A stretch of 54,960 nucleotides of DNA from Bacteroidales bacterium (GCA_025361285.1 JANYAP010000156.1:1-54960); one strand, 5' to 3'; shown: positions 36,738 through 54,463, counted from the first letter of the stretch. The notes: a model not told the origin generated them from the letters alone. Program-made: numbers and translations.

Positions 36738-37566
36738 GTACATACAGATAGAGACATCGGTGGTATGTAACAGTAAATGTGTATTTTGTCCTCACGAAGA
36801 AATGGAACGTGGCCCTAACTATATGGAGGATTGGGTGTGGAAGAAAATTATCGACGAAAGTCGCGGTAAAGGTATCATATACAGGCCGTTTATGATTAAT
36901 GAGCCGCTAATCGACCCTCGTATGCCCGAAATAGTGCGGTACATAAAACAAGATCCCACTGCTAAAGTAGAGTTTAATTCGAATGGAAACCTAGCAGTAA
37001 AAACTGATGTAGAGGCACTTATAGCTTCAAATATCGATTGGGTGCGCTTTAGTTTAGATGGTTTTACTGCCGAATCGTTTAAAGCAAGCGGACGTGGTGG
37101 AAAGTTCGAAAAAATAGTTGAAAATATACATCGTTTTATCGATGAGCGTAATAGACAGAAAAGCGATACATATATTGAGGTTCGTATTATCGATCTCGAC
37201 GAAAACCGACACGAGCATGCCGACTTTGTTAAGTATTGGAGCCAATATGTAAACAAAGCTACTGTAACGCCTTTGTACGCTTGGCCTTGGACTGGACAAA
37301 CCGAGCCGCACCTTGCACCATGCATGAAAGTTCGCGACGAAATGTTTTTTATGACCGACGGTAACGCCACCCTTTGTTGCTGGGACGCTTTTGGCAGAGG
37401 CATTGTTGGTAATGTTACCAAAAATACCGTAGAGGAGATTTGGCTTGGCGAAACCAATCAAAAATACCGCGATATTCTTAGCAAAGGCGAACGCGAACAA
37501 ATTTTATTGTGTTCTAAATGTGATGCTTACAAAAACTACGATTTCACTAATTGGCCAGGGTATTAA
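36721..37566 (+). CDS. Radical SAM/SPASM-domain protein
   Basis: The 281-residue protein has the 4Fe-4S radical SAM motif CNSKCVFC (C16, C20, C23) and a C-terminal SPASM region with paired cysteines (APCMKV, ATLCCWDAFGRG, LLCSKC). It should generate a 5'-deoxyadenosyl radical; SPASM members modify peptides or sugars. It overlaps waaA by 17 bp, so it belongs to the same operon and may act on LPS or another glycan (inference). The product is unknown. Confidence 0.9.
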   Translation: MVLFPKYIQIETSVVCNSKCVFCPHEEMERGPNYMEDWVWKKIIDESRGKGIIYRPFMINEPLIDPRMPEIVRYIKQDPTAKVEFNSNGNLAVKTDVEALIASNIDWVRFSLDGFTAESFKASGRGGKFEKIVENIHRFIDERNRQKSDTYIEVRIIDLDENRHEHADFVKYWSQYVNKATVTPLYAWPWTGQTEPHLAPCMKVRDEMFFMTDGNATLCCWDAFGRGIVGNVTKNTVEEIWLGETNQKYRDILSKGEREQILLCSKCDAYKNYDFTNWPGY

Positions 37567-37575
37567 TCGGTGAAC

Positions 37576-37713
37576 ATCCGTAATGTCTGGCAACAGGCGA
37601 AACCTTTTCATTGAGTATTCTATTTTACGCTGCAATAAGCTTATAATCTGTTATTTTAAAAAGGTTTTGCCTGTTCTCGATTCATTATTTTGCCCATTAT
37701 CGACATTACGGAT
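37576..37713. repeat. Nested palindromic element (about 138 bp) after the radical SAM gene
   Basis: Outer arms ATCCGTAATGTC (37576-37587) and GACATTACGGAT (37702-37713) are a perfect 12-bp pair. Inner arms AACAGGCGAAACCTTTT (37592-37608) and AAAAGGTTTTGCCTGTT (37659-37675) pair over 17 bp with one G-T. No transposase is present. The design fits a miniature inverted-repeat element or a long structured RNA. It is unrelated in sequence to families A-D. Confidence 0.65.
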
Positions 37714-37857
37714 TTACACTTATAAAACTATGTAGTTTTGGTGGCGTTAATTATTTTCTATATATTTCATATCTAAAAAGATACATATTCTCACTTGCAT
37801 AAGTAATTTATAAACAATTGTTTATAATTGCATATTAATTATTATTCATGCTTTAGA

Positions 37858-37987
37858 CAAAGGCTGTAGGCTTTAGTCCATAGCTTTAGGAGAAAGAAAC
37901 GATGGTAAATATATATTTTTTACATACAATTTTACAAATTCCAATGAAGTTCCTACAGCCTCTAGCCTACAGCCTACAGCCTATTTT
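37858..37987. repeat. Inverted pair of family D heptamer arrays
   Basis: A GGCTGTA/GGCTTTA-type array at 37858-37892 and a CTACAGC/CTCTAGC array at 37953-37987 are complementary to each other around about 60 bp. The right array, read on the minus strand, ends in GGCTGTAGGAACTTC like the arrays at 24403 and 25320. With the nested palindrome it fills the 440-bp gap before the three-gene operon. Confidence 0.65.
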
Positions 37988-38006: not shown

Positions 38007-41000
38007 ATGGTAAAATACATCATTAATTTGCTGGGTATCGATGTTCTGCCAAAATGGCTGTTAACCCATCTTTTATTGATGTCGCTGGCTTTGGGCGGCT
38101 TTAATGCCGTGTTTTTTATTCAAGCTGTGTCGGGGTTTCTCGAAGAAGGTAAATTAGCCTATTTCCCTTATATAATGGCTCTTTCGGGTATTATAGGGTT
38201 GTTACTTTATAACCTGTATAAATATTATGAAAGTAAATTTACTTCTAAATATTCGTGGCTCATGTTTTGGGGCTTAGTACTCACATTATTAAGTCTATCT
38301 AAGCTGTTCCCCTTTATTATACCCGAGTTTTCGCGCCATGTAATCCTATTCACTATTTACTTACCAATAACAATAGTCGCAAATCAAATATTTCTGTCGA
38401 TGGGCAATAACCTTCCTATCGCAAAAGAAAACCTGAACTTAAGGCGTTTCCTCGATTCTGGGTTAATGCTTGGGGCTGCTATATCGAGTTTTATAATTAT
38501 CATTCTTACAATTACCAAAATAAACCTTCCGTTTTTTGCAACCGAGGTAATACTGATATTGTTTGTGATTTTCGACTACTTTTTTATCGTCCGCCAGCTC
38601 GATTTCGAAGAGAAAAAAATAGAAGAATCGGGTATCGACTCTATGATAACCATTTTTACTAGCATTACCCCTAAAAAAGCAGTGTTTTCGTTGGTAATAT
38701 TTTGTTTTTTCTCTACTCTTAATTTTATTTTCATCGATTTTTCTTTTTTTACCGTAATTCGTAGCGTTTATACCGATATCGATAATCTTGTAAAATTCGT
38801 AGCGTTCTTTTTTGGATCGGTTATGATGGTAAGCATCGTTTTTAAAGTATTTGTTTATCAGAATCTTATAAAGACTTTCCGAATTGGCAAAGCATTATTT
38901 TTATCGCCAATATTTTTTGTTGGATGTTTATTAATACTTAATATTCTGTTACTTAAGCCAAGCCGTGCCGTTATTTCCAGCCCTTTTACATTGGTTTTTC
39001 TTATGGTTTTGTTTAGTAGGTTCTTTGCGTTCTTGCTTCGCGAATCGTTCGAAAACCTTTCGGCAAAGCAGTATTTTATTGCAATAGAATCGTTTAACCG
39101 AAAGCCTCTTTCGCGTAATTTAATTAACGTAATTGGGTTCTGGTCCTTTTTGGTAGCAGGTTTAGTGCTATTAATGCTTTTAAGTTTGGACATAAAAACC
39201 TTTACATTCATAATGTATCTCAACATGGCCATTGCCGTAGCTTGGCTTTTGTTTACTGTTTTTACATCAAAGAGATACATAAATACTATTTCCCGACTTG
39301 TTTATAAGCTTACAACCGACTATAAACCTAGTACTGCCGAGCATCAAAAGAAGTTTAAAGACAGGGTTATGATTTCCACTAATCTTTCGGGATTAAGGTA
39401 TCTTTTAAACTATCAGCGTCATTATCAGCCTAATAACTTCCTAAAAACTATCGAAGCAATTCCTATTGATTTAAAAGATAAGCTAAAGATTTCGAATTCT
39501 AATAGTGCATTTTCTACTTCGCGCATAGCAAATGTTTTTGCAGAAGAAGAAAGGCCAATTAGTTTCTACGATTCCAACGATAATATTAAAGATAAGGATG
39601 TTGAAGTGTTGGCCATTTCGTATAGAGTGAAGGATAGAATTGATGCCGCTAAAATGATTCAAAAGTCGCTCGATTCGCGTTCTTTCGGCATTTTAAAAAT
39701 GTTATTGCGCGATACCGACGACGAAGTTAAACGGAATGCAATTATTACTGTAGCAACATGTTATAATTACGATCTTATTAACGAGTTGCTCGAGTTTATT
39801 AGTTACGAGGATTTTGCCGATCTTACAGCCGATGTACTTGCCACAATTGGTGCGCCAGCTGTCGATTCGCTTGTTGGGCTATTTCATAAGTCGGATATTG
39901 AGTTTAGAATACAGGTTAAAATAATTAAGATTATTGGCAAAATTTCGAGCGAGCGAGCCATTAAGTTTTTACTCGCAACTATTTTGTACCCAAACAAATG
40001 GATTGTTATTGAAGTTGTTAAGTCCCTTAGCGAGAACAATTACAAAGTTTTAGAAAGCGACGACATTGTAATTAATACGGCCATTAAAAAGACTATTGGT
40101 GCTGCTGCATGGCTTCTTTCTATGGAAGCAAGTGTGGAACCAATCGACAGAATTAACCCTATAAAAGCTGCTTTAGTTGAGGAATATTCAGTTACAATCG
40201 ACCTTTTGTTTAATCTATTAGCTTTAAAATATAGCGATGGGGTAATTAGCGAGGTAAAGGGATATATTATTGGTAATTCGAATAACGAGCAGCGCGAATT
40301 GGGTGTTGAACTGCTTGATTATGTTATCGATACCGACTTAAAAAAGTTTCTGTTTCCATTATTGCATAATAATGCGTTGCACGAGAAATTAACTCAACTT
40401 AAGGAGTTTTATCCTATTGATATTAAGAATTATATCGACGCTTTACGCGAAATAGTAAATACCGATTTGGGTCGCGTTAGTTTATGGTCTAAAGCTTGCG
40501 CATTAAATGCCTTTATCGACAATTTAGAAGACATGAACTCCGACGATATTTTCTCGCAAGTGTTTAATAACGAGGCATTACTTGCCGAAGTAGCATTTTT
40601 TGGACTTTACAAAAAAAATAAAACTATTGCAGCCGAATTGTATAAGCGTTTGCCTAAAAAATCTAAACAGCAAATTAGTGCAATACTCAAAGTTGGCAAA
40701 AATTTCGAATATAAGTTGTTATTTAATAAAGTATTAACTTTAAAAAAGATTTGCCATTTCCAAAAGGTTAAAGGACACCACTTATTGCCTTTCGCCGAAG
40801 TGCTTACCGAGGAATACCTGCAGGCCGGAAACTCTACGTTCCTACATTGTTCCGATGAGGAAGTTCTGCCTATATTTACTGTGCCATTTGGCGAGGTTTC
40901 GTTGGTCGATTTGCATAAAAGAGTGTTTCGCTTAAACCGAAATTTCCTCTATGGACTTGGACTTTATGCTGGTGGGGTTAAATTGAAAGCCTTCTCCGAC

Positions 41001-41108
41001 TCGGTTGTATATCTGACCAAAGCGGAACAAATTGGCTCATTGGTTATTAACTACGAGGAATTATCCGATGCATTGTTTAAATACATTCAAAACAGTAATT
41101 TCTATTAA
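38007..41108 (+). CDS. 12-TM nucleotide-transporter-like (Npt/NTT-type) protein with HEAT repeats
   Basis: The 1033-residue protein has about 12 transmembrane helices in residues 18-425 and a large cytoplasmic part. The N-terminus (LLTHLLLMSLALGGFNAVFF, then YFPYIMALSGIIGLLLYNLY) resembles the Npt1/Npt2 branch of ATP/ADP translocases. Residues about 540-700 are HEAT-like helical repeats (RSFGILKMLLRDTDDEVKRN, VDSLVGLFHKSDIEFRIQVK, AIKFLLATILYPNKWIVIEV). The last 80 residues (VKLKAFSDSVVYLTKAEQIG...) look like a degenerate cyclic-nucleotide-binding barrel. NTT proteins fused to HEAT and cNMP domains are known in free-living bacteria. Transport is not proved. It is 14 bp before the TIR-like gene. 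Confidence 0.65.
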   Translation: MVKYIINLLGIDVLPKWLLTHLLLMSLALGGFNAVFFIQAVSGFLEEGKLAYFPYIMALSGIIGLLLYNLYKYYESKFTSKYSWLMFWGLVLTLLSLSKLFPFIIPEFSRHVILFTIYLPITIVANQIFLSMGNNLPIAKENLNLRRFLDSGLMLGAAISSFIIIILTITKINLPFFATEVILILFVIFDYFFIVRQLDFEEKKIEESGIDSMITIFTSITPKKAVFSLVIFCFFSTLNFIFIDFSFFTVIRSVYTDIDNLVKFVAFFFGSVMMVSIVFKVFVYQNLIKTFRIGKALFLSPIFFVGCLLILNILLLKPSRAVISSPFTLVFLMVLFSRFFAFLLRESFENLSAKQYFIAIESFNRKPLSRNLINVIGFWSFLVAGLVLLMLLSLDIKTFTFIMYLNMAIAVAWLLFTVFTSKRYINTISRLVYKLTTDYKPSTAEHQKKFKDRVMISTNLSGLRYLLNYQRHYQPNNFLKTIEAIPIDLKDKLKISNSNSAFSTSRIANVFAEEERPISFYDSNDNIKDKDVEVLAISYRVKDRIDAAKMIQKSLDSRSFGILKMLLRDTDDEVKRNAIITVATCYNYDLINELLEFISYEDFADLTADVLATIGAPAVDSLVGLFHKSDIEFRIQVKIIKIIGKISSERAIKFLLATILYPNKWIVIEVVKSLSENNYKVLESDDIVINTAIKKTIGAAAWLLSMEASVEPIDRINPIKAALVEEYSVTIDLLFNLLALKYSDGVISEVKGYIIGNSNNEQRELGVELLDYVIDTDLKKFLFPLLHNNALHEKLTQLKEFYPIDIKNYIDALREIVNTDLGRVSLWSKACALNAFIDNLEDMNSDDIFSQVFNNEALLAEVAFFGLYKKNKTIAAELYKRLPKKSKQQISAILKVGKNFEYKLLFNKVLTLKKICHFQKVKGHHLLPFAEVLTEEYLQAGNSTFLHCSDEEVLPIFTVPFGEVSLVDLHKRVFRLNRNFLYGLGLYAGGVKLKAFSDSVVYLTKAEQIGSLVINYEELSDALFKYIQNSNFY

Positions 41109-41122
41109 TCGATTAAATTAGA

Positions 41123-42544
41123 ATGAAAGACTACCTGCAAATATACCTCCACTTTATTGAAAATACTGATGAAAATGCACAGTGGAATTCCGAATTTAGT
41201 TACAATTTTTCGGTTGTAATTAAACAAATTGTTGGATACTCCCCAATATTATTGTCGAATATCGATGTTTATGGAGCGCAAATATATACATACCAGACAG
41301 TTGACGACCTAGTGGACAAAAACGCGGTAATTTTTATTTTAAGCTCGAAAGTTAAGGATTCCGATTTCGAATTTATCCTTAACATGTTGCCTAACATTGC
41401 ATTGTCGAACGTGTTTTTAGTTTATAGGTTGTATAATACCGATGTTGTAGCTACCGATACTATTAAGGCATTGCCATCGTACAATTTTTTCGACAACAAT
41501 CCTTATAATCTTGAAGTTACAGAGTTTTTGTCTGGTGGGCAAGGCGAAATATCAAACCAATTTTGGAATAAAATTACCGATTTAGCTTACGATGTAAAGT
41601 TACTCTGCTCTAAATCAAATAATTTACCTAATGTCTCTTCAGCTGAAAATACTATTTTTCTAGCAGAAGTGTCTGGAGATCAGGCGAAAAATCGCGAAAA
41701 GCTACTTCGCGAATTGCTTCTGTCGGGTTACCGTGTGCTGCCCGAAAAACCACTGCCATCAACTATAACCCATTGTGAAATGACAGTTGCCGACCAGCTC
41801 TCGCAGTGTGTGTTATCAATTAATATTATGGGTGAAGCTTATGGCGATACGCCCACCGAATCGGATTATTCGTACGTGGAAATTCAAAACCGAATGTTTA
41901 CCAAGCTTATTTCGAAAATTTCCGATGAAGAAAGCACCCAACATATTCAACGTATTGTGTGGTTTCCTCCTGTATTCGAACCTTTCGACGATAAGCAAAT
42001 TCAATATCTAAAGCGTTTAAAAAAGGAAATTGTTGATAGCAACCATACCGAACTGATACACTCCTCCCTTAACGACCTTAAAGATATTGTAGATGAGAAA
42101 CTTACTCTTTTAGGGAAAGCTAATAATGATGATTTTTTTGGCGAATTAACTCCAATTCTACTAATCTCCGATCAAGTCGATTCGGAAGTTATTGTAAATG
42201 TTGAAGGCAAGCTTCGTAAACAAGGTGTTGAATATGTTAACTTTACATTGTTGCATAAGGAAACCAGCCTAATCTCGTTAAAATTCGACGAATTTAAAAG
42301 GTACTCTAACTTTTTGATTGTTAGTACTAAAGGTAACAATTTATGGGCTAATAGTATTACCAGTATTTTAATACGATCAAAAAGTTTCTCAAGCTCAAAC
42401 CGAAAAAGCACTATTGGGTTACTTTTGCCAGAGGCGAGCGGAAAAATAGCCAAATGCGCTAACGTAAAAGTGATAGCGCAAACATACAACAAAAGTAATT
42501 TAGATACAGCATTAACTTCCTTAATATCAAGCATAACAATATGA
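41123..42544 (+). CDS. Protein with TIR-like (DUF4062-like) domains, partner of the STAND gene
   Basis: The 473-residue protein has no signal or membrane segment and appears to hold three alpha/beta domains. The central one (about 176-330: NTIFLAEVSGDQAKNREKLL, SGYRVLPEKPLP, SQCVLSINIMGEAYGDTP, SYVEIQNRMF) matches the TIR-like/DUF4062 type found beside nSTAND NTPases. The N-terminal part (YLQIYLHFIENTDENAQW, VIFILSSKVKDSDFEFI) and C-terminal part (FLIVSTKGNNLWANSI) look like degenerate copies. The NAD-cleaving glutamate cannot be assigned with confidence. Its stop overlaps the STAND gene start by 4 bp (ATGA), so the two are translationally coupled. Confidence 0.6.
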   Translation: MKDYLQIYLHFIENTDENAQWNSEFSYNFSVVIKQIVGYSPILLSNIDVYGAQIYTYQTVDDLVDKNAVIFILSSKVKDSDFEFILNMLPNIALSNVFLVYRLYNTDVVATDTIKALPSYNFFDNNPYNLEVTEFLSGGQGEISNQFWNKITDLAYDVKLLCSKSNNLPNVSSAENTIFLAEVSGDQAKNREKLLRELLLSGYRVLPEKPLPSTITHCEMTVADQLSQCVLSINIMGEAYGDTPTESDYSYVEIQNRMFTKLISKISDEESTQHIQRIVWFPPVFEPFDDKQIQYLKRLKKEIVDSNHTELIHSSLNDLKDIVDEKLTLLGKANNDDFFGELTPILLISDQVDSEVIVNVEGKLRKQGVEYVNFTLLHKETSLISLKFDEFKRYSNFLIVSTKGNNLWANSITSILIRSKSFSSSNRKSTIGLLLPEASGKIAKCANVKVIAQTYNKSNLDTALTSLISSITI

Positions 42545-45500
42545 TTAACCAGGAACCTGCTAACGCAAAGCGTAACGATATAACTAGCAATATATTAACT
42601 CATAGTCTGCCAAATATTCCTTTCGTAGGTTTACGACCATTTCGTACCGAAGAAAGTCATCTGTTTTTTGGTCAGCACAATACCAGCGAAAAGGTTATCG
42701 CAAAATTACAGGCTAACAAATTCGTTTGCCTGCTAGGTGGCGCTGGTGTTGGTAAAACTTCGTTAATTAATTGCGATATTAAGCCATGGCTTTACAGTGG
42801 TTTTGCTTATGATAGCAACGCCAATTGGCATATTTTCGATTCACAACCCGGATACGATCCGATAAGGAATTTGGCGAAATCAATTTGCTCGGAGCCGAAC
42901 GATTTTTTCGACGAAAACAAACCTATTCTGGAACAAATTAGCTATAGCGTATTGCGACGAGGAAAATCTGGTATTCATGAGTTGTTTGAGCAACTAAAAT
43001 TGCCCACAAATACAAACTATCTCTTTGTTATCGACCAATTCGAAGATCTGTTTCGCACTCGTTCCAAAACCGACGAGGTAGATTTTTTCGAAGAAGCCTT
43101 GGAGTTTGTAATCCTCTTATTAGAAGGTTGTAACGATAAGGAATACAACATTTACGTTATTGTTTCCATTCGCTCCGATTTTACCGACGATTGCGTTATG
43201 TTTCCGGCTTTAGCCGAAATGATAAATCGTAGTAATGTATTGATTCCTAAGATGTCGCGTAATCAAATTCAACAAGCCATTTTAGGTCCGTTAAACACCT
43301 TAAATATAAAAATCGACAAAACTTGCTTGGCGCAGATTTTAAACGACGCAACTACTGCCGACGACCTTCTCCCGCGTTTGCAACACGCCATGAAACGTAC
43401 ATGGGAATCGTGGAGCAGTTTGCATAGTGCCGACAAACCAATATCCATAAAGGAATACGAATCGGTTGGCGGTATTCAAGGGTCGATTGCGGCACATGCT
43501 AATTTCGTTTTCGATGAGTTAAACGACAATGACAGAAATACTTGCGAGCTTATTTTTAAATCTCTTACCGAAAGAGGTTCTGAAAACAAGGGTCTTACTC
43601 GTGTTTGTTCTGTTAATGAACTTGCCGAAATAGCCATGATTGAAGTTGCTGATATTGTGCGCATTGTTTCAATTTTTAGTCATCCCGAAATAGGTTTTTT
43701 AGTGTCGGATACGCCTGATATTAAACCCGAAACATTTGTGCAACTTTCGCATGTAAGCCTTATGCGTGCTTGGAATAATCTTCGGCAATGGGTTGACGAT
43801 GAGGCCATTTCGGGGCAAATGTTTCAGCAACTGTCCAATGCATCTGCAGCTTATCAAATTGGGCGAGTAGGCTTACTTCGTCCTCCCGATCTTCAGTTTG
43901 CAATTAATTGGCGCGAAAAGCAGAAGCCTACAAATGCCTGGGCTAAACGATATAGCCTTGCTTTTGAACGAACTATGGTATATTTGCGTACAAGCCTCAA
44001 TTCGTTCGAAGCCGAGGAAGCGCTAAAAAAGGTACAGGCAAAAAAAGCCATACGCAAAGTACGTTCTTTGTCAATAATATTAGGCACTACAGCCATTTTG
44101 GCAATGATGGTAATGCTGTATTCGCAAGTATTGCGTCGTAATGCCGAAACTCAGAAGCGATTAGCACTCTATCAGATGCAAGAGGCCGACTCTAAATCTA
44201 TTACTGCCGAAAAAATATCGAAAGAAGCCCTCGAAGATAAGTTTCATGCCGAAATTGCAGCCAACGAAGCCGAAAAAAATAAGTTGCAAGCTTTGCAGGA
44301 AACAGAAGTGCTAAGTCAACAAAAGAGCTTTGCCGAAATAACTGCGCAAGAGGCAGTTAAAAAAACTTCGGAAACGGAATTAAATCTTATTGAAATTACT
44401 AAGCAAAATCAACAGATAGAGAAAGCGGCACTTCAAGCCAGTCTCCAAAAAACTGAGGCCGAAAAAGAAAAGGAAGAAACTTTTAAAAAACGTTTGTTAA
44501 CTATATCTCAGGCCATTGCTGTTAAGTCGAGTCAAGTGTTGAACAATAAAACGCTAAAAGCACTTTTGGCAGCTCAAGCTTATCAATTTAACACAAAGTA
44601 TGGCGGAATCGATTGTCATCCCGACATATATAATGCGCTTTTCAACTCTTTATCTGATAACGGCATAAATCTTCGCCGTAAGTTTAAAGGGCATACCGGT
44701 TCAGTTAAAGCTTTATGCGTTAATTCTAACACAAATATAATGTATTCCACTGGCAGCGATGGAAAGGTTATAGCGTGGAACTTGAATGAAGCCGATGTGC
44801 CTGCAACAACGTACATAAAAGGCGGAGGTGGTAACCTTAGTCTCGCTATTAGCCAAAACGGCCGATTGCTTGCTGTGGGTTCCGAAGTTGGAAATATTCA
44901 AATTATCGATTTAATAAATCCAACTGCAAAGCCAGTTCAATTAAAGGCTCATCAAGGTGCTGTTTATAGCATAACTTTCTCTAAGGACGGTCAACAGCTT
45001 TTCTCTACTGGTGCCGATAAGAAAATTCTGCTTTGGGATCTTGCAACTTCTTCACCGTCGGTTATTTACAACGAAGGAAATACGGTTAGAGCTTTGAGTA
45101 TCAGTCCCGACGGAAAATTCTTGGCTAGCGGTGCCGAAGATGGTCGTGTTTTGGTGTGGGATATTAGAAATAATCAAATGGTTACCTTTGGTGGCGACGA
45201 CAGAAACCCTGTTTACGCCGTGTCGTTTAATTATTCGGGCACGCTACTGGCATCGGGCGATATAAAGGGAAATGTTAAGCTATGGAATCCTTATTCCAAA
45301 AAGCTAATAAAAAGCTTTAAAAGCCACAGTGCGCGGGTTGTCGATATTAAATTCAGTGCCAAAAGCGATCTTATGGTTTCGTCGAGTTACGATGGTAGCG
45401 TATATATTTTCGATACACGATATGTTAATGCACCACCTATAATTGTTAGAGAACCTGCTACATGGATACTGTCGGTAGCGTTAAGTGTTGATAATAAATA

Positions 45501-45663
45501 TCTTATTATGGCTACAAACAAACCCGATTTTATTATTTCGGTACCTTCTCAAACAAAATATATGGCCGATTTATTGTGTTCGAAAATTACTCGAGACCTA
45601 ACTAACGATGAATGGAACACATACATCGGCTCCGATTTGAAATATGAAAAAACTTGCGAATAA
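42541..45663 (+). CDS. Membrane-anchored nSTAND NTPase with WD40 propeller
   Basis: The 1040-residue protein opens with the nSTAND1 signature (IPFVGLRPFRTEESHLFFGQ, 26-45), then Walker A GGAGVGKT (66-73), Walker B LFVIDQFED (161-169) and sensor RSDF (211-214). A winged-helix/helical arm reaches about 500, followed by one transmembrane helix (509-530, SLSIILGTTAILAMMVMLYS), a long coiled coil (535-655) and seven WD40-type repeats (about 714-1010) closing with ...GSDGKVIAWNL, GADKKILLWDL, AEDGRVLVWDI and so on. STAND NTPases are switch-like receptors; the propeller probably senses the trigger. The helix between NTPase and propeller is unusual because it may place the propeller outside the cytoplasm. 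Confidence 0.88.
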   Translation: MINQEPANAKRNDITSNILTHSLPNIPFVGLRPFRTEESHLFFGQHNTSEKVIAKLQANKFVCLLGGAGVGKTSLINCDIKPWLYSGFAYDSNANWHIFDSQPGYDPIRNLAKSICSEPNDFFDENKPILEQISYSVLRRGKSGIHELFEQLKLPTNTNYLFVIDQFEDLFRTRSKTDEVDFFEEALEFVILLLEGCNDKEYNIYVIVSIRSDFTDDCVMFPALAEMINRSNVLIPKMSRNQIQQAILGPLNTLNIKIDKTCLAQILNDATTADDLLPRLQHAMKRTWESWSSLHSADKPISIKEYESVGGIQGSIAAHANFVFDELNDNDRNTCELIFKSLTERGSENKGLTRVCSVNELAEIAMIEVADIVRIVSIFSHPEIGFLVSDTPDIKPETFVQLSHVSLMRAWNNLRQWVDDEAISGQMFQQLSNASAAYQIGRVGLLRPPDLQFAINWREKQKPTNAWAKRYSLAFERTMVYLRTSLNSFEAEEALKKVQAKKAIRKVRSLSIILGTTAILAMMVMLYSQVLRRNAETQKRLALYQMQEADSKSITAEKISKEALEDKFHAEIAANEAEKNKLQALQETEVLSQQKSFAEITAQEAVKKTSETELNLIEITKQNQQIEKAALQASLQKTEAEKEKEETFKKRLLTISQAIAVKSSQVLNNKTLKALLAAQAYQFNTKYGGIDCHPDIYNALFNSLSDNGINLRRKFKGHTGSVKALCVNSNTNIMYSTGSDGKVIAWNLNEADVPATTYIKGGGGNLSLAISQNGRLLAVGSEVGNIQIIDLINPTAKPVQLKAHQGAVYSITFSKDGQQLFSTGADKKILLWDLATSSPSVIYNEGNTVRALSISPDGKFLASGAEDGRVLVWDIRNNQMVTFGGDDRNPVYAVSFNYSGTLLASGDIKGNVKLWNPYSKKLIKSFKSHSARVVDIKFSAKSDLMVSSSYDGSVYIFDTRYVNAPPIIVREPATWILSVALSVDNKYLIMATNKPDFIISVPSQTKYMADLLCSKITRDLTNDEWNTYIGSDLKYEKTCE

Positions 45664-45804: not shown

Positions 45805-45834
45805 TTGTATTTCCAGTTATATGTCTTATATTTG
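45805..45834 (+). promoter_or_regulatory. Consensus promoter TTG-N19-TATATTTG for the Xre/RES pair
   Basis: TTG (45805-45807) lies exactly 19 bp before TATATTTG (45827-45834). Transcription would start near 45841, which favours the antitoxin start at 45860 over 45821. It shows that the toxin-antitoxin pair has its own promoter, separate from the STAND operon. Confidence 0.75.
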
Positions 45835-45859
45835 TGGACAAATGTCTAATTTATTTATT

Positions 45860-46360
45860 ATGACTAAAACCGATTCGAAAATTACAGATAAATTAGACAA
45901 AGAAATTGTCTCGTTCTTTAGGCAATCGCATCTTGACGATAAGTATTCTTCATCAATTGAAAACTTAACTTATTCAAATTTTCTTTCAAATAGATTGCTT
46001 ATAATATATATTATAAAGCAAGGCGTACCGTATTCTTTATTCAATTTAATTCAACTTACTACTCCTTTTACCGATAATGATTGGGCAAATATTCTTGATA
46101 TATCAACCAAGTCGTTACAGCGTTACAAACAGACTTCAAAACAATTCAAATCAATACAATCAGAAAAAATAATTGAAATGGCAGAAGTTACTAATATTGG
46201 ATTAGATGTTTTTGGCGATATCGACAAATTTAAACTGTGGTTAGATACTCCAAATTATTCATTAGGTAATTTAAAACCATTTGATTTACTTAAAGATTCG
46301 TATGGTAAAGAGATGGTAATTAGCGAATTAACTCGAATTAATTTTGGCATTTTGTCATAA
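45860..46360 (+). CDS. Xre/MbcA/ParS-type antitoxin of a RES toxin
   Basis: The 166-residue protein (start MTKTDSKITDKL) has an Xre-like N-terminal half (WANILDISTKSLQRYKQTSK, the DNA-binding helix region) and a C-terminal toxin-binding domain (EVTNIGLDVFGDIDKFKLWL, then LKPFDLLKDSYGKEMVISEL with the PFDLL-type motif). It should neutralise the RES protein and repress the promoter. Starts at 45821 and 45842 are possible but lie before or at the predicted transcription start. Its TAA overlaps the toxin ATG by one base. Confidence 0.85.
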   Translation: MTKTDSKITDKLDKEIVSFFRQSHLDDKYSSSIENLTYSNFLSNRLLIIYIIKQGVPYSLFNLIQLTTPFTDNDWANILDISTKSLQRYKQTSKQFKSIQSEKIIEMAEVTNIGLDVFGDIDKFKLWLDTPNYSLGNLKPFDLLKDSYGKEMVISELTRINFGILS

Positions 46361-46818
46361 TGGAAGTTTATCGATTATCACGCCAAAAATTTGCCGATAC
46401 TTTGTCAGGTAAAGGTTCAGCATTAAAAGGTGCTCGATGGAATTCTGTAGGAGTTGAACTGATTTATACAGCGTCAAATCGTTCGCTGGCAATGGCAGAG
46501 GTTTCGGTGCATTTCACATTGGCAACACTACCATCCGATTATGTAATGATGACTATTTACATTCCAGATGATATTAATGTTCAAATTATTGATATACAGA
46601 ATTTATCTCCAAATTGGAATACTTTTCCCTATATTATCAAAACACAAATAATTGGAGATAAATTCGCAGTCGAAAACAAGTTTTGCATTTATAAAGTACC
46701 GTCAGCAGTAACTATGGGCGATTTTAATATTTTGATTAATCCGAATCATACCGATTTTTCTAAGATTAGAATCTCAAATATTGATAATTTCCCCTTTGAT
46801 ATACGAATTTTTAAATGA
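46360..46818 (+). CDS. RES-domain toxin (NAD+-degrading)
   Basis: The 152-residue protein shows the three conserved RES residues: R26 in GARWNS, E47 in AMAEVSVHF and S115 in KVPSAV, plus the trailing ILINPNHTDFSKI. RES toxins of this kind degrade cellular NAD+ (family knowledge). It is translationally coupled to the antitoxin. The neighbouring STAND/TIR-like operon is also a candidate NAD-linked defence locus. Confidence 0.9.
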   Translation: MEVYRLSRQKFADTLSGKGSALKGARWNSVGVELIYTASNRSLAMAEVSVHFTLATLPSDYVMMTIYIPDDINVQIIDIQNLSPNWNTFPYIIKTQIIGDKFAVENKFCIYKVPSAVTMGDFNILINPNHTDFSKIRISNIDNFPFDIRIFK

Positions 46819-46984: not shown

Positions 46985-48043
46985 ATGAAGTTGTTTATTA
47001 TTAGATTTTTATCTATAAGTTTTGTCCTTTTTGCTTTTACATATAATCTTGTAGCTCAAGATTGTACAGGTAAATTGCAGCAAGCTCAGCAATTGTTCGA
47101 TGCCGGACAGATTGAGCAAATACCTTCATTATTAGACTCTTGCATTCAAATCGGCTTTTCTACCGAAGATAAACAAAAGGCATATAGGCTATTAATTCAG
47201 GTTAATCTTTTCGATTACAATCGAGATAATGCCGACTCGTTAATGCTAAAATTTCTTAGCAACTACCCCGAATATAAAATTCAATCAACCGACCCTTCGG
47301 AGTTTTCGGAATTATTTAATCTATATAAGGTACACAAAACGTGGGGTTTAGGCGTTAGTTTGGGTTACAACTTACCTCAAATTAGTGTTTCCGAGCATTT
47401 TTCGGTTGCTAGCTTAAACAAAATAAATTCAACGTATTCTCCAATAGTTGGCAATTTTACTGCTGGTGTACTCATTAATAGATACATAGGCTCGCATTTG
47501 TGGATTTCGAGCGATATAAAGTATTCGGTATTAAATTTAAAAAATATTGAAACATTAAGTGTTTATAAAGAGGTAATTACATATAAAGAGAAAACTAAAT
47601 GGTTGAATATTCCCGTAATGCTTAACTATAGTTTCGGGAACAAACAAATTTCGCCATTTATTTTTTGCGGAGGCGAGTTGGGGTACTTATTATCAGCATC
47701 ATCCGAAATTAAACGATCGATAGTTTACGATAATATTTACCCCGAAATAGTTCAACCTTTAACCAATATTTCTAATACTCGCGAAAAAATTAATATATGG
47801 GGCGTAGGTGGGGTAGGAGCGAATTTTAATGTACGCGGCGGATATTTTTCTGTCCGTGCTGGGTATAATTACAATTTCTCGTCGTATGTAAAGCCCGAAT
47901 ATAGGTACTTCGGCATTAGTAAAATTCAATATCACAATTATATCGACGATAATTTCGTAATTAATAATATGTTTTTCAATATCAGCTATTCCCGATTATT
48001 TTATCGTATTAAAAAAAGTGTTGTAAATGATACTTCGAATTAA
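46985..48043 (+). CDS. Outer-membrane beta-barrel protein
   Basis: The 352-residue protein has a signal peptide ending ...FAFTYNLVAQ, a short helical region (25-110, CTGKLQQAQQLFDAGQIEQI, resembling a TPR) and then alternating strands that form a barrel (WGLGVSLGYNLPQISVSEH, WISSDIKYSVLNL, ISPFIFCGGELGYLL, GGYFSVRAGYNYNFSSYVKP) with an aromatic end. It fits the general Bacteroidota PorT/OMP_b-brl type. Function is unknown. It overlaps the following lipoprotein gene by 17 bp, so the two are probably cotranscribed and may form a surface complex. Confidence 0.8.
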   Translation: MKLFIIRFLSISFVLFAFTYNLVAQDCTGKLQQAQQLFDAGQIEQIPSLLDSCIQIGFSTEDKQKAYRLLIQVNLFDYNRDNADSLMLKFLSNYPEYKIQSTDPSEFSELFNLYKVHKTWGLGVSLGYNLPQISVSEHFSVASLNKINSTYSPIVGNFTAGVLINRYIGSHLWISSDIKYSVLNLKNIETLSVYKEVITYKEKTKWLNIPVMLNYSFGNKQISPFIFCGGELGYLLSASSEIKRSIVYDNIYPEIVQPLTNISNTREKINIWGVGGVGANFNVRGGYFSVRAGYNYNFSSYVKPEYRYFGISKIQYHNYIDDNFVINNMFFNISYSRLFYRIKKSVVNDTSN

Positions 48044-49223
48044 AAAAATATTAAATTATTGTATTGTTCTTATTGTTCTTGCTTCGTGCGCTAAGGATCC
48101 TCAAATTAGTACTTTTCAATCTAAACAATTTGTTAAGTATTTCGGTGGTTCTCAAGTAGATAAAGCATCGTCGGTAGTAGAATGTGCCGATGGTGGGTTT
48201 GCGTTAACTGGCTCAATGTTAGATGATAATAACAAAACCCGCGCCTTTTTGATTCGCACCGACCGTTTTGGAAACGAATTGCCATGGTCGCCTTTATTGT
48301 TAGGCGATTCAATTAATAGTACAGGGCATTCTATAATTAATATTAACGATAATGGTTTGTTAATTGTTGGCTCAACAACTATTATTGCTAACAATATGCC
48401 TAATACCGATGTGCTTGTGGTTAAGATTAATAGCAATGGCGATACAGCATGGCAAAAAAACTTTGGCGGTAGGTTGAACGACGAAGCCTTATGCGTAAAA
48501 CAAACCATAAGTGGTAACTTTCTTATTGGAGGGTACACCGAAAGTAATATCAATAATAAGGGTGGCAAGGACGCGTGGTTAATTATGATCGACAATAACG
48601 GAAATAAGATTTGGGATCGCACCGAAGGATTTAGTAAAAATGAAATGTATAAGGCTATTGTTGAAACAAAACTCAACTATATACTCGTTGGTTCTACCGA
48701 ATTGGTTGCAGTTGATAGTTTTGACAGAAGTATATTTTTTATAAAAATCGATAAAACATCCACAATAGGCGTTCCATTGGATTATAACTCAATCGATTGG
48801 CTATCATATAAATCTGCAATTAAAGTAATTAAAGTTGAGGACGAAAGTCTCATTGTTATGAAAAACATATACAATCCTTCAACAAACTTATCTAACATTC
48901 AGTTATTGAAGGTTCAGGAAGATTTTCAGCAAGTTGTTTGGACGAAAAACATATCTTTCTCATCTGTAAACGAATACGGTAGTAATTTATTTATTCGAAA
49001 CGATACTATCGAAGTGATAGGCAACTCACTGAATGGCGCTACAAAGCAATTTATTGTAACAAAGGTAAACCAAGCTGGCGATCCTCAAAGTAGAAATATC
49101 GAAATTGGCATTGTAAATCAAATTGTTAATGACGGCTTTATTTCCACCGATGGACATTTAATAATTGCAGGTTCCACAGTAATCAATGGATATTCGAAAA
49201 TATCGTTACGCAAAGTTAAATAG
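48027..49223 (+). CDS. Lipoprotein with repeated propeller-type modules
   Basis: The 398-residue protein has a lipoprotein signal with lipobox VLASC (C21). The mature part repeats a module of roughly 45-60 residues of the type ...GDTAWQKNFGGRLNDEALCV..., GGKDAWLIMIDNNGNKIWDR and ADGGFALTGSMLDDNNKTRA, common in Bacteroidota extracellular propellers. It would sit on the outer membrane, perhaps with the barrel encoded just upstream. Ligand and enzymatic activity are unknown. Confidence 0.82.
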   Translation: MILRIKKILNYCIVLIVLASCAKDPQISTFQSKQFVKYFGGSQVDKASSVVECADGGFALTGSMLDDNNKTRAFLIRTDRFGNELPWSPLLLGDSINSTGHSIININDNGLLIVGSTTIIANNMPNTDVLVVKINSNGDTAWQKNFGGRLNDEALCVKQTISGNFLIGGYTESNINNKGGKDAWLIMIDNNGNKIWDRTEGFSKNEMYKAIVETKLNYILVGSTELVAVDSFDRSIFFIKIDKTSTIGVPLDYNSIDWLSYKSAIKVIKVEDESLIVMKNIYNPSTNLSNIQLLKVQEDFQQVVWTKNISFSSVNEYGSNLFIRNDTIEVIGNSLNGATKQFIVTKVNQAGDPQSRNIEIGIVNQIVNDGFISTDGHLIIAGSTVINGYSKISLRKVK

Positions 49224-49432: not shown

Positions 49433-49522
49433 AATAACAACCCTGAACTTAGCGGCATTGAATTGCAAGTATTAATTTTTATTGTCCTTTTTTTGGGCAT
49501 ATATTTTAATAAAAAGAACCCT

Positions 49523-52500
49523 ATGAAAACTCTAATTATAGCCTTATTATTCTTTGTAAATCAAATAGTTATCGGTCAAACACTATCTGTAATCACAAGT
49601 AGTGCAACAGCCTCTGTTACAGAGAATAATGTGTCAGCTATTACTGTTACAGCTACCGACGACGACCCTGCGGAGGTTTTAGTATATTCTATTTCTGGAG
49701 GAATTGATGCCACCATGTTTTCTATCGATGCCAACTTTGGTGTACTAACTTTTAACACACCACCCAACTTTGAAAACCCAACTGATAATAACACCGACAA
49801 CGAATACGAATTGAGCGTTCAAGTTATCGGGAACGATTTTTTAGCAGCTACCCAAAATATTTTAATTACCGTAACCAACTTAAACGAATCACCCACCGAT
49901 ATTGCCTTGAGCGCAACTTCTATTAACGAAAATGTTGCTACAAACGCTCCCGTAGGCACTTTCACCACCACCGATGTCGATGCCGCCAATACCTTTACAT
50001 ACACCTTAGTTACTGGAACTGGTAGTAGCGACAATGCTGCGTTTTCTATCGTTGGAAACACCTTGCAAATAAACAATTCGCCAAATTACGAGGTCGATAA
50101 CAGCTTTAGCATTCGCATTCGAAGTACCGATCAAGGAAGTTTATGGTTCGAGAAAACTTTTGTTATTACCGTAACCAACTTAAACGAATCACCCACCGAT
50201 ATTGCCTTGAGCGCAACTTCTATTAACGAAAACGTACCAGCAAACACCGCCGTAGGCACTTTCACCACCACCGATGTCGATGCCTCCAATACCTTTACAT
50301 ACACCTTAGTTTCTGGAACAGGTAGTAGCGACAATGCTACGTTCTCTATCGTGGGAAACACCTTGCACATAGTTAATTCGCCTAATTACGAGGTCGATAA
50401 CAGCTTTAGCATTCGCATTCGAAGTACCGATCAAGGAAGCTTGCCTTTCGAAAAAGCTTTTACAATTATAATAAACGATGTTAACGAAGCTCCTACTAAC
50501 CTAACAATAAGTAAATCATCTATAAACGAAAACGTACCGGCTAATTCTTTAATAGGGGTCTTTTCAACCACCGATGTCGATGCTGGAAGCACATTCATTT
50601 ATGCTTTAGCATCAGGCGCAGGAAATGCCGATAATGCTTTTGTTTCGATTAATGATAACGACCTGTATATTAACGACTCTCCAAATTTTGAATCAAAAGA
50701 CACATTCAATATTCGCATCCGAACAACCGATCAGGGTGGAATATGGTTCGAAAAAGCGTTCATCATTACCATAAACGATGTTAATGATAAACCTACAAAT
50801 ATTTTATTATCAGCCACAACCATCAACGAAAATGTCTCAGCAAATGCATCTGTGGGTACTTTATCGTCCACCGATCCAGATGCTGGCAATACATTCACCT
50901 ATTCCATTGTCTCAGGCGCCGGAGGAACTGATAATGCTTCGTTTACTGTCGCAGGAAGCACCCTTCGCATTGTTGCTTCGCCCGATTTTGAAACCCAAAG
51001 CAGCTATAATATTCGCATTCGAACAACCGATCAAGATAGCGCTTTTTACGAAGAAGCTTTTTCTATCACAATTTTCGATTTAAATGAAGCTCCAATAGCT
51101 AACAACGTATCTATTAGCGGTAACACTACGGTTTGTAAAACCCTAACCGGAAGCTACACATACTCCGATCCCGAAAACAACCCCCAAAGTGTATCCACAT
51201 TTAAATGGTATTGGGCTAGTACTTTAAGCGGTGCTAAAACCGTTATTTCTGGCGCTGTTTCAAGCACATATACATTAACAACAAACGAATATAACAAATA
51301 CATATTTTTTGAAGTTACACCTAAAGCTTCTGATGGAGTTGCTGTTGGCACGCCAGTAATAAGTGCTGCCTCAACTATTGTTACCGATCTTTTACCCACA
51401 GTAGCAATATATTCTTCATCGCCAAGTTTTTGCGATGGAAAAAGTGTGAATTTAACATTCACATTTGCAAAAGGCACGCCGCCATTTAATCTTACCTATA
51501 CAAATGGTACACAAAATTATTTCATAACTTCAAATGAAACAAATCATTACGTTACCATCACTAAAGGTGGAACTTATAAAGGCGTTACCCTTACCGACAA
51601 TCTAAATTGCCCTGTTACAAATTTACCTTCAACGGTAAGTGTTACTTTAAATCCGTTACCTGTGGTTAAAATAAGCGGATTAAATACTGCCTATAATGTT
51701 AACAACAGCCCTGTTGTAATGACTGGTACGCCTATTGGCGGAGCTTTTTCGGGTAACGGCGTTGTGCCTGCCTCTAAAACCTTTCATCCTTCAATTGCTG
51801 GAGTCGATGGTTCCCCTCATGCTATTGTTTATCAATATACTACTCCATCAACTGGTTGTTCAAATACCGATACTGTTAAAGTAACAATTAAAGATGCAAA
51901 TGCATTTATCGATGGTTTTAGGTCGCAAAATAAATATTGTAATTTCGATGCACCTTTTATCATTTCGGGAGCCAACAATGTTGCGGCAGTTGGTAGTTTT
52001 TCTATTACTGGTGGGGTGGGTATTGTTGATAATCATAACAATACGGCAACAATAACCCCTGTTACACTTGGGCAAGGAACTTTTACAGTAACTTATACTT
52101 ATACCAATGCTAGCGTGCAATTATCGGTAACTCGAACATTTTCTGTTGAAACATTGGTAGATGCCAATATAATTAACCTTTCCGAATCGGTTTATTGTTC
52201 CAACGTGCCAAACATTAAGCTTACAGGAACATACAATTCGGGAATTACCAAAAAAGGTATTTTCTCCGGAAACGGAATTGTGAAAACATCCGACTCGCTG
52301 TTTTATTTTAAACCTTCCGAAGCAACTGCAGGAACCAGCTTTGTGCGGTATAGTTATACTACTAATTACGGTTGTAAAACTGCCGATTCTGTGCAGGTTA
52401 CAGTCGCAACTAAGCCAGCTTCGTTGTTCGAAGTATCAAATAAATGTTGGAACAACGATATTACTGTTTATAACAATCAATCGTCGCCAGTTGGTTCAAT

Positions 52501-54463
52501 TACAAATAGTTATTGGAATTTTGGTGATTATCAAGCTACCGAAATCGACAATAATTCAACACTAACAAATCCAACTCATAAGTATTTATCGCCAGGAAAC
52601 AAAACCGTTAAATTGGTTTCGGTTACCAATATGGGATGCCGCGATACAGTTTTGAACACTTTCTATTTGGGAAGCATTCCCAGCCTCGATTTTACATGGA
52701 ATACCGAATGCTTTAACTACGAAACACCAGTAAACTTTACCAGTTCCGTTTCTAGTATCGATGCTATTGGAACCTATTCGTGGGAAATTAGCGGAAGTGC
52801 AATTAATACAGTAAATTACGTAACACCCAATTGCATGCATTCCTTTGGCTCAGCTGGCGATTTTAGAGTTAAATTATTAATAAAAACTATTGCTAATTGC
52901 GAAAATAGCATTCAAAAGCAAATTAGGCTTAAGCCAACCTTTTCATTAAAAGACGGTAGTTATAGCAACGACTTCGAAAATGGAAAGGATTTTTGGTTCG
53001 AAAACGAAAATACTTCCAATAAATGGATGTTCGGGCTACCATCGGGAACTACTATTAAATCAACTTATTCGGGTGTAAATTCGTTCTATACCTCCCTCGG
53101 AGGGCCTTCTAACCAGCAGTTAATTGTATCCAGTCCTTGTTTCAATTTTACGCAAACTGGTAAACCGTTTATCGAAATGTGGATCAATTCCAATAATCCT
53201 AAAGATACAGAAGGTGCTGTTTTACAATATCAATTGGAAAACACTACCAATTGGCATACACTTGGCTCATTAGCATCGGGAATAAATTGGTATAACAGCA
53301 ATTCAATTGCATCAAGCCCTGGAAATCAAAGTTTTGGTTGGTCTGGTGCAACTAACGGCTGGATATCTACTCGCCATTCTCTTGATGAATTAATAGGAAA
53401 TAACAATGTTCGTTTTCAGGTTGTGTATGCAACAAATGCCTCTGTTACTGGGCGCGATGGATTTGCATTCGATAATGTGTTTATAGGTCAGCGCAATAAA
53501 ACAATTATGTTGGAACATTTCGCTAATAATTCAAGTACCGAAAGCAATCTGTCGAACAGTAAAGTTTCGGAACTTTTAGGCCAAGCGCCATCCGATATAG
53601 TTAGTCTTCAGTATCACACATCGTTTCCAGGCGTCGATTCTCTTAACTCAAACAACAAATCCGACCCTAGTGCGCGAGTTCTATACTACGGCGTCGAAAA
53701 TATCCCTACAGGGTATTTGAATGGCGGAGCTGAGGCGAAGTATGTTTACGATTTTTCGAGCACCACGCCCAATATTAGCGATATTAATTTCCTTGCTATG
53801 CGCGATGCCGAATATAAATTAAATATTACAGTCGAGAATGTCAATTCGGTAATATCAGGCTCAGTTAAAATAGAGGCATTGAAAAACATATCTCAACGCC
53901 AAACAATGGTGTATATTGCAATTGCCGAAGACATTGCCATTCAGTCGGGTGCCAATCAGATAATGTATTTCAACGTTCTTAAAAAGTTTTTGCCAACTGC
54001 TGCCGGAACACCTTTAAATATAGCTTTGGCGCAGGACCAATCGGTAACATTTCCATTTTCGTGGGCGAGTTCAAAAATATATAATTTCGATCGTTTGTGG
54101 GTTATTGCCTTCATTCAGGACGAGCTAACCCGCGAAATATACCAGGTTGCATCCTCAAACCCTCAATATTATACGGCAATTCTTCCATTTCAATCGAAAA
54201 CCTCAAACGATTTTATCGACATGAAGGTTTACCCAAACCCCGCCAGCGACCTGTTGTTTGTTTCGTTCGATAAGGAGTTAGCAGCCGAATCGGTAGTTCA
54301 GCTAATCGACAATTATGGGCGAATGGTTAAAAATACAAAAGTATTTGCACACATTTCGGCTTTAGAGATGAGTATTAGCGACTTACCCGAAGGCATTTAT
54401 TTCGTTCGACTTATTCAAAAAGGTGCGTATAGCCGAGCAGCTAAGGTTTTGGTGATGCATTAA
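49523..54463 (+). CDS. Giant cadherin-repeat surface protein with T9SS type A tail
   Basis: The 1646-residue protein has a signal peptide (MKTLIIALLFFVNQIVIGQ), then five cadherin-like repeats (the last four exactly 300 bp = 100 residues apart, with INENVPAN, TTDVDA, IRIRSTDQGS motifs), Ig/PKD-like domains (PKD about 966-1046, YWNFGDYQATE), a jelly-roll/MAM-like region (about 1151-1325) and an Omp28-like segment (about 1328-1440) whose usual CxxC is missing. The tail DMKVYPNPASDLLFVSF... is a type A T9SS sorting signal. The start at 49523 begins the signal peptide; 49463 would add 20 residues. It is probably an adhesin or matrix protein. Confidence 0.88.
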   Translation: MKTLIIALLFFVNQIVIGQTLSVITSSATASVTENNVSAITVTATDDDPAEVLVYSISGGIDATMFSIDANFGVLTFNTPPNFENPTDNNTDNEYELSVQVIGNDFLAATQNILITVTNLNESPTDIALSATSINENVATNAPVGTFTTTDVDAANTFTYTLVTGTGSSDNAAFSIVGNTLQINNSPNYEVDNSFSIRIRSTDQGSLWFEKTFVITVTNLNESPTDIALSATSINENVPANTAVGTFTTTDVDASNTFTYTLVSGTGSSDNATFSIVGNTLHIVNSPNYEVDNSFSIRIRSTDQGSLPFEKAFTIIINDVNEAPTNLTISKSSINENVPANSLIGVFSTTDVDAGSTFIYALASGAGNADNAFVSINDNDLYINDSPNFESKDTFNIRIRTTDQGGIWFEKAFIITINDVNDKPTNILLSATTINENVSANASVGTLSSTDPDAGNTFTYSIVSGAGGTDNASFTVAGSTLRIVASPDFETQSSYNIRIRTTDQDSAFYEEAFSITIFDLNEAPIANNVSISGNTTVCKTLTGSYTYSDPENNPQSVSTFKWYWASTLSGAKTVISGAVSSTYTLTTNEYNKYIFFEVTPKASDGVAVGTPVISAASTIVTDLLPTVAIYSSSPSFCDGKSVNLTFTFAKGTPPFNLTYTNGTQNYFITSNETNHYVTITKGGTYKGVTLTDNLNCPVTNLPSTVSVTLNPLPVVKISGLNTAYNVNNSPVVMTGTPIGGAFSGNGVVPASKTFHPSIAGVDGSPHAIVYQYTTPSTGCSNTDTVKVTIKDANAFIDGFRSQNKYCNFDAPFIISGANNVAAVGSFSITGGVGIVDNHNNTATITPVTLGQGTFTVTYTYTNASVQLSVTRTFSVETLVDANIINLSESVYCSNVPNIKLTGTYNSGITKKGIFSGNGIVKTSDSLFYFKPSEATAGTSFVRYSYTTNYGCKTADSVQVTVATKPASLFEVSNKCWNNDITVYNNQSSPVGSITNSYWNFGDYQATEIDNNSTLTNPTHKYLSPGNKTVKLVSVTNMGCRDTVLNTFYLGSIPSLDFTWNTECFNYETPVNFTSSVSSIDAIGTYSWEISGSAINTVNYVTPNCMHSFGSAGDFRVKLLIKTIANCENSIQKQIRLKPTFSLKDGSYSNDFENGKDFWFENENTSNKWMFGLPSGTTIKSTYSGVNSFYTSLGGPSNQQLIVSSPCFNFTQTGKPFIEMWINSNNPKDTEGAVLQYQLENTTNWHTLGSLASGINWYNSNSIASSPGNQSFGWSGATNGWISTRHSLDELIGNNNVRFQVVYATNASVTGRDGFAFDNVFIGQRNKTIMLEHFANNSSTESNLSNSKVSELLGQAPSDIVSLQYHTSFPGVDSLNSNNKSDPSARVLYYGVENIPTGYLNGGAEAKYVYDFSSTTPNISDINFLAMRDAEYKLNITVENVNSVISGSVKIEALKNISQRQTMVYIAIAEDIAIQSGANQIMYFNVLKKFLPTAAGTPLNIALAQDQSVTFPFSWASSKIYNFDRLWVIAFIQDELTREIYQVASSNPQYYTAILPFQSKTSNDFIDMKVYPNPASDLLFVSFDKELAAESVVQLIDNYGRMVKNTKVFAHISALEMSISDLPEGIYFVRLIQKGAYSRAAKVLVMH
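49881..51080 (+). repeat. Four in-frame 300-bp tandem repeats within the adhesin gene
   Basis: Units start about 49881, 50181, 50481 and 50781, exactly 300 bp apart. The first two are almost identical at the DNA level: the 68-bp stretch from 49865 recurs at 50165 with a few changes. The last two have diverged. A more distant unit precedes at about 49575. Confidence 0.85.

Follow-up and report, generated by a model that had tools for sequence, protein, structure and literature searches.

A Bacteroidota gene cassette linking a transmembrane STAND NTPase and an NTT-HEAT protein to outer-membrane genes and a giant secreted protein

What might a nucleotide-carrier-like membrane protein, a TIR-like protein and a membrane-anchored STAND NTPase do together when they are encoded side by side? 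The question is raised by a 54,960-nucleotide stretch from a Bacteroidales bacterium (GCA_025361285.1, JANYAP010000156.1:1-54960; "the window" below is this whole stretch), in which a first-pass annotation, made from the sequence alone, saw a three-gene operon that it tentatively linked to conflict and immunity. We find instead that these genes make up only the cytoplasmic and inner-membrane half of a larger conserved cassette of Bacteroidota, apparently not described before, which reaches to a giant surface-secreted protein. The three open reading frames at 38007-45663 lie on the plus strand as annotated, with 14 bp between A and B and a 4-bp overlap (ATGA) between B and C, and their placement in a single operon is supported:

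Gene A, 38007..41108, plus strand: 1033 amino acids (aa); 12-transmembrane region of the major facilitator/NTT type (about 1-437), HEAT repeats (about 530-910) and a degenerate cNMP-binding beta-barrel (about 920-1030)
Gene B, 41123..42544, plus strand: 473 aa, cytosolic, no transmembrane segment; three TIR/flavodoxin-like domains (1-164, 173-333, which is DUF4062, and 341-473)
Gene C, 42541..45663, plus strand: 1040 aa; nSTAND1 (27-439), transmembrane segment (about 509-527), coiled coil and WD40 propeller (about 712-994)

Homologues of A were gathered from the same order regardless of their neighbours, and from 80 named contigs, and the neighbouring genes were then annotated; the contig search for related loci used an alignment of nine closer A sequences. 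Nearly all sources are metagenome-assembled genomes (MAGs) of uncultured Bacteroidales or Bacteroidota, with a few Cytophagales and Flavobacteriales. Removal of duplicates left 107 distinct A loci, 81 of them informative in that they either hold enough downstream sequence or end at a gene on the opposite strand. The recurrent gene order is A-(X)-(B)-C-D-E, and A, C, D and E are present in 57 of the 81 (37 AXBCDE, 12 AXCDE, 6 ABCDE, one with C split into two frames, and the window); the other informative loci mostly hold A in different contexts. Adjacency of A, B and C, on which the annotation had staked its proposal, is kept in other Bacteroidota far beyond chance. Median gaps, counted over loci that were not de-duplicated, are 1 bp for B-C, 7 bp for C-D and 3 bp for D-E, and in this same set C and D are separated by 50 bp or less in 75 of 78 cases, which is the spacing of a tight operon. 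A unit of three genes is nonetheless too small, because D, E and F follow C in conserved order: the cassette comprises five to seven genes, among them an outer-membrane barrel, a lipoprotein and a giant protein secreted by the type IX secretion system (T9SS), and in the window it runs on to the end of F at 54463:

Gene D, 46985..48043, plus strand: 352 aa; signal peptide, N-terminal domain of about 100 aa and outer-membrane beta-barrel (OMP_b-brl_2)
Gene E, 48027..49223, plus strand: 398 aa; lipoprotein (lipobox LASC), repeat- or propeller-like
Gene F, 49463..54463, plus strand: up to 1666 aa; signal peptide, cadherin/PKD modules, Omp28-like domain and T9SS type A tail

Co-variation is stronger among the cassette genes (rho 0.45-0.78) than between them and the Vut_1 gene beside the cassette (0.29-0.49). 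Natural presence and absence of B and X separates the core from accessory parts: most cassettes also carry X, which the window lacks, B is missing from 12 of the 57, and in family f128, from another order of the same class, ABCDE and ACDE copies occur together in one genome.

The gene that follows E shares its strand in 58 of 59 loci, and a giant F follows E in nearly every extended region that we read. We collected 19 distinct F proteins (17 of them complete) of 1460-4114 aa. All nine that were scanned carry the T9SS type A sorting tail (Por_Secre_tail, PF18962), and their modules vary among cadherin, PKD, Ig, SprB-repeat and CUB. The C-terminal region can be aligned across F proteins and contains an Omp28-like domain, for which the Pfam Omp28 matches stay below cut-off. 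In the window the likely start of F, by inspection, is the ATG at 49523, which gives the first plausible signal peptide. F thus resembles the giant SprB-like T9SS adhesins in its signal peptide, its Ig-, PKD-, cadherin- or SprB-type modules and its type A tail, but differs in the alignable Omp28-like region before the tail and in adjoining a STAND/NTT cassette.

Gene C is, as had been read from the sequence, a membrane STAND NTPase: nSTAND1 (PF20703) matches with an E-value of 6.6e-75, Walker A and B are intact in the window, the NTPase motifs are kept in 80 of 81 C proteins, and all 81 have one transmembrane segment near residue 500. The WD40 propeller is matched too; the seven blades once counted in it are only consistent with its length of about 300 aa. 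The 15 residues before the transmembrane segment carry a mean net charge of +5.7, compared to +0.8 for the 15 after it, and the positive-inside rule accordingly puts the STAND domain probably in the cytoplasm and the propeller in the periplasm. C shares its domain content with known nSTAND1-WD40 proteins, but immune STANDs are cytosolic whereas the propeller of C is predicted to lie in the periplasm and is coupled to outer-membrane genes.

A recurrent domain connects C with the periplasmic side of outer-membrane proteins. The N-terminal domain of D also begins TonB-dependent receptors that adjoin C in a second cassette holding A and C (E about 1e-14 to 1e-22). Since this domain is common to two different outer-membrane barrels, each of them encoded next to C, our sequence comparison suggests that it may be the contact to C. 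The second cassette (loci L090, L095, L096, L103, L104, L110, L271, L274 and L275) has the order C, TonB-dependent receptor, a protein of about 295 aa, A, and a Reg_prop/Y_Y_Y histidine kinase; the protein of about 295 aa is formyltransferase-like in L096. E matches no Pfam family above cut-off, and 64 of 82 E proteins show a lipobox when a loose pattern is used.

The link of A to nucleotide carriers, on which the earlier annotation also depended, is clear at the level of the family. A has 12 hydrophobic segments and a HEAT_2 match (E 7.5e-8), and the profile of the family alignment matches plastid NTT1 (E 3e-15), chlamydial NTT1 (E 3e-14), HEAT proteins, alphaRep/HEAT structures and cNMP-binding domains (cNBD of PKG, E about 1e-13). 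The AlphaFold model (pLDDT 78) lies nearest to AtNTT1 (Z 34.9 over 418 aa, 3.2 A; LacY 29) and contains a visible C-terminal beta-barrel, though no canonical phosphate-binding cassette for the cNBD was seen in the alignment. The annotation of 12 transmembrane segments of ATP/ADP-translocase type with HEAT repeats is therefore borne out, but it had overlooked the cyclic-nucleotide-binding fold: the A family is an NTT-HEAT-cNBD fusion. Fusion carriers of the NTT-HEAT(-cNBD) type were described by Major et al. in 2017, with their members uncharacterised (PMC5381601); A has the same domain order, while that paper gives no link to STAND, outer-membrane or T9SS genes, and the window's A departs further in lacking conserved carrier motifs. 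PF03219 (TLC) scores above cut-off in three orthologues (G280, G200 and G441) and does not match the window's own A, which we rejected as a direct member of that family. The motifs DGxxNE and RQGKR are likewise absent from it. DGxxNE lies in the NTT region, and its D and N align with AtNTT1. Among A proteins adjoining a C gene (79 loci holding A and C), the motif is present in all 56 with X downstream and in none of the 22 without. This is suggestive, not proof, of a carrier function coupled to X, since X status needs only two to three independent changes on the A tree. Because its carrier motifs are degraded and X is missing, the window's A is more probably a scaffold or sensor than a nucleotide exchanger, contrary to the nucleotide movement once ascribed to it. 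The clades of A largely track taxon families, rather than showing a pattern of patchy transfer. Distant A-like proteins occur in a Desulfococcaceae genome (L218; 1272 aa) and a Gracilibacteria MAG (L220), by transfer or misbinning, and the Gracilibacteria gene is followed by an X-like protein of 1065 aa.

X combines a sensor region outside the cytoplasm, which looks Cache-like by eye, with HAMP and SpoIIE/PP2C, and its catalytic motifs are intact in 54-56 of 57 proteins. Its best NCBIfam match is SiaA, at 244 bits, which does not reach the equivalog cut-off of 700. SiaA controls aggregation and biofilm formation in Pseudomonas by dephosphorylating SiaC (PMC7647112). The likeness to the SiaABCD pathway lies in the combination of membrane sensor, HAMP and PP2C, and in the occurrence of SiaC homologues (PF09345) in cassette-bearing genomes: they are strongly expanded, with 1-21 copies in each of the 17 genomes tested, G000 among them, compared to none in 14 controls. 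However, no SiaB, SiaC or SiaD was seen in the cassette, the abundance of SiaC does not separate genomes with X from those without, and the window has no X between A and B, as is also the case in families f1, f43, f118 and f128. Some SiaC genes lie close to SpoIIE genes (C63 and C170 of G000), and a tandem duplication of X (835 and 656 aa) lies inside the cassette in L080 and L175.

The TIR-like nature of B holds up. PF13271 (DUF4062) matches the window's B with E 4.4e-4, below the Pfam cut-off, and its L066 homologue with 7.5e-6, above it. The model of B (pLDDT 80) has three alpha/beta domains of the flavodoxin/TIR-like kind. Foldseek returned no match at E<=0.001 for the whole model; alignment by domain was informative. 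Domain 2 is similar to TIR domains and to MilB (Z about 12; TIR fold 12.1), domain 3 is similar to receivers and TIR (Z about 10-11), and domain 1 has a TIR_2 match in a homologue. The presumed catalytic glutamate of DUF4062, a position assigned by sequence alignment and not from a superposed active site, is E253 in the window; across 59 homologues it is E in 37, D in 11 and another residue in 11. Because this glutamate is not conserved and B can be missing from the cassette, the sequences make an adaptor role likelier than that of a universal NADase. In other families, TIR-like proteins resembling B are paired with nSTAND proteins resembling C where A is absent, as a separate B'-C' pair (L135, L136, L138 and L124-L131).

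The surroundings of the cassette are those of housekeeping genes, and we rejected a location in a defence island: in 45 of 74 loci the four genes upstream include Vut_1, AroK, ParC or ParE, and lipopolysaccharide genes lie upstream in the window. PADLOC left B, D and E unmatched and gave A and C weak or generic matches only; its match at 32461-34278 was rejected as defence, since an MsbA-like exporter is matched there as a generic ABC-ATPase. One further gene pair of the window lies between C and D, outside the conserved cassette:

Xre antitoxin, 45821-46360, plus strand
RES toxin, 46360-46818, plus strand

In the nearest relative (G003, locus L059) C and D overlap and the pair is absent, so it was most simply inserted in the window's lineage, splitting an otherwise tight operon. 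A scan for promoters and terminators did no better than on shuffled sequence. Within the 440 bp upstream of A, at 37563-37982, lie nested imperfect inverted repeats, such as AGGCTGTAGGCTTTAG / CTACAGCCT.

How might such a cassette work? Our confidence in the cassette itself, as observed in its gene set, order, domain content, operon spacing and motif conservation, is much higher than in any account of its function. With a probability of roughly 0.45, we tentatively propose an envelope-spanning module for sensing through, or control of, the surface protein F. F at the cell surface would act, by way of the barrel D, whose N-terminal domain would face the periplasm, and the lipoprotein E, on the periplasmic propeller of C. 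This input would switch the cytosolic STAND NTPase. A, as scaffold or carrier, would read the state of C at the inner membrane, and two optional components, the TIR-like adaptor B and the SiaA-like phosphatase X, would read it in the cytosol. The biological role would most likely be to sense or control surface contact, adhesion or aggregation. The narrower version, in which F and the outer-membrane pair switch the transmembrane STAND protein by way of its periplasmic propeller, and this controls the NTT-HEAT carrier with nucleotide exchange over the inner membrane as part of the signal, would be a new class of trans-envelope signalling machine but seems to us rather unlikely. Several points weigh against the proposal as a whole. 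The window lacks X, which provides the clue to adhesion signalling; F could simply be co-regulated cargo; the topology of C derives from charge bias only; membership of an operon is no proof of a complex; and the signal, the direction in which it passes and any physical contact among C, D, E and F are all inferred.

The same parts can be read from the inside out, with A and C as an ATP-using machine that works through D and E to drive or gate how F is secreted, anchored or released, in the manner of a dedicated T9SS accessory. SprF and SprB provide an example of dedicated partners of giant T9SS adhesins, F adjoins E and bears the sorting tail, and the strict conservation of the NTPase motifs in C would fit such a machine. 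We nevertheless find it doubtful: D matches OMP_b-brl_2 with no match to PorP/SprF seen, proteins with sorting tails are normally handled by the T9SS without dedicated factors, and the WD40/STAND architecture is typical of sensing. A metabolic explanation, which takes A to exchange nucleotides in fact, with its flux and X together signalling the energy status and F being only a regulated output, draws on the NTT fold and profile of A and on the strict association of DGxxNE with X. It is improbable, as the motif is lost in the window and in several lineages that retain C-D-E, the association reflects those few changes on the tree, and the cNBD has no recognisable phosphate-binding cassette.

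Least probable of all is the anti-phage or conflict system that the immunity role of the first-pass annotation amounts to, with C sensing infection, B acting as a TIR-like NADase effector and A handling nucleotides or NAD. A 2026 preprint (PMC13174449) reports that DUF4062 proteins are TIR-like NADases active against phage, the middle domain of B matches both DUF4062 and the TIR fold, its presumed glutamate is there in the window and in most homologues, STAND proteins are frequent in immunity, and B'-C' pairs exist without A. But Swarozyc, from the same study, has one TIR-like domain and a portal-binding auxiliary domain where B has three in tandem, and the B family neither conserves the glutamate (replaced in 22 of 59) nor lies in defence islands. 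The last point weighs little alone, given that only about 20% of the homologues in that preprint lie in such islands (PMC13174449). The housekeeping neighbours and the PADLOC results do not favour immunity either, nor do the 12 cassettes without B and the descent of A largely by taxon family, and an outer-membrane barrel, a lipoprotein and a T9SS protein are ill-suited to a cytosolic abortive-infection switch. A machine for surface sensing or adhesion control is thus more likely than an anti-phage system.

Each of the families is already known, but their combination as a system matches no described kind that we can name, and we found no description of it in open-access papers, which is weak evidence of absence. 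STAND NTPases have been studied mainly as cytosolic immune switches, whereas C appears to place its sensor propeller in the periplasm. Its conservation with outer-membrane and surface proteins links STAND to the nucleotide-carrier fusions that were reported as uncharacterised in 2017, and the cassette provides a testable genetic context for the STAND NTPase and NTT-HEAT fusion families alike.

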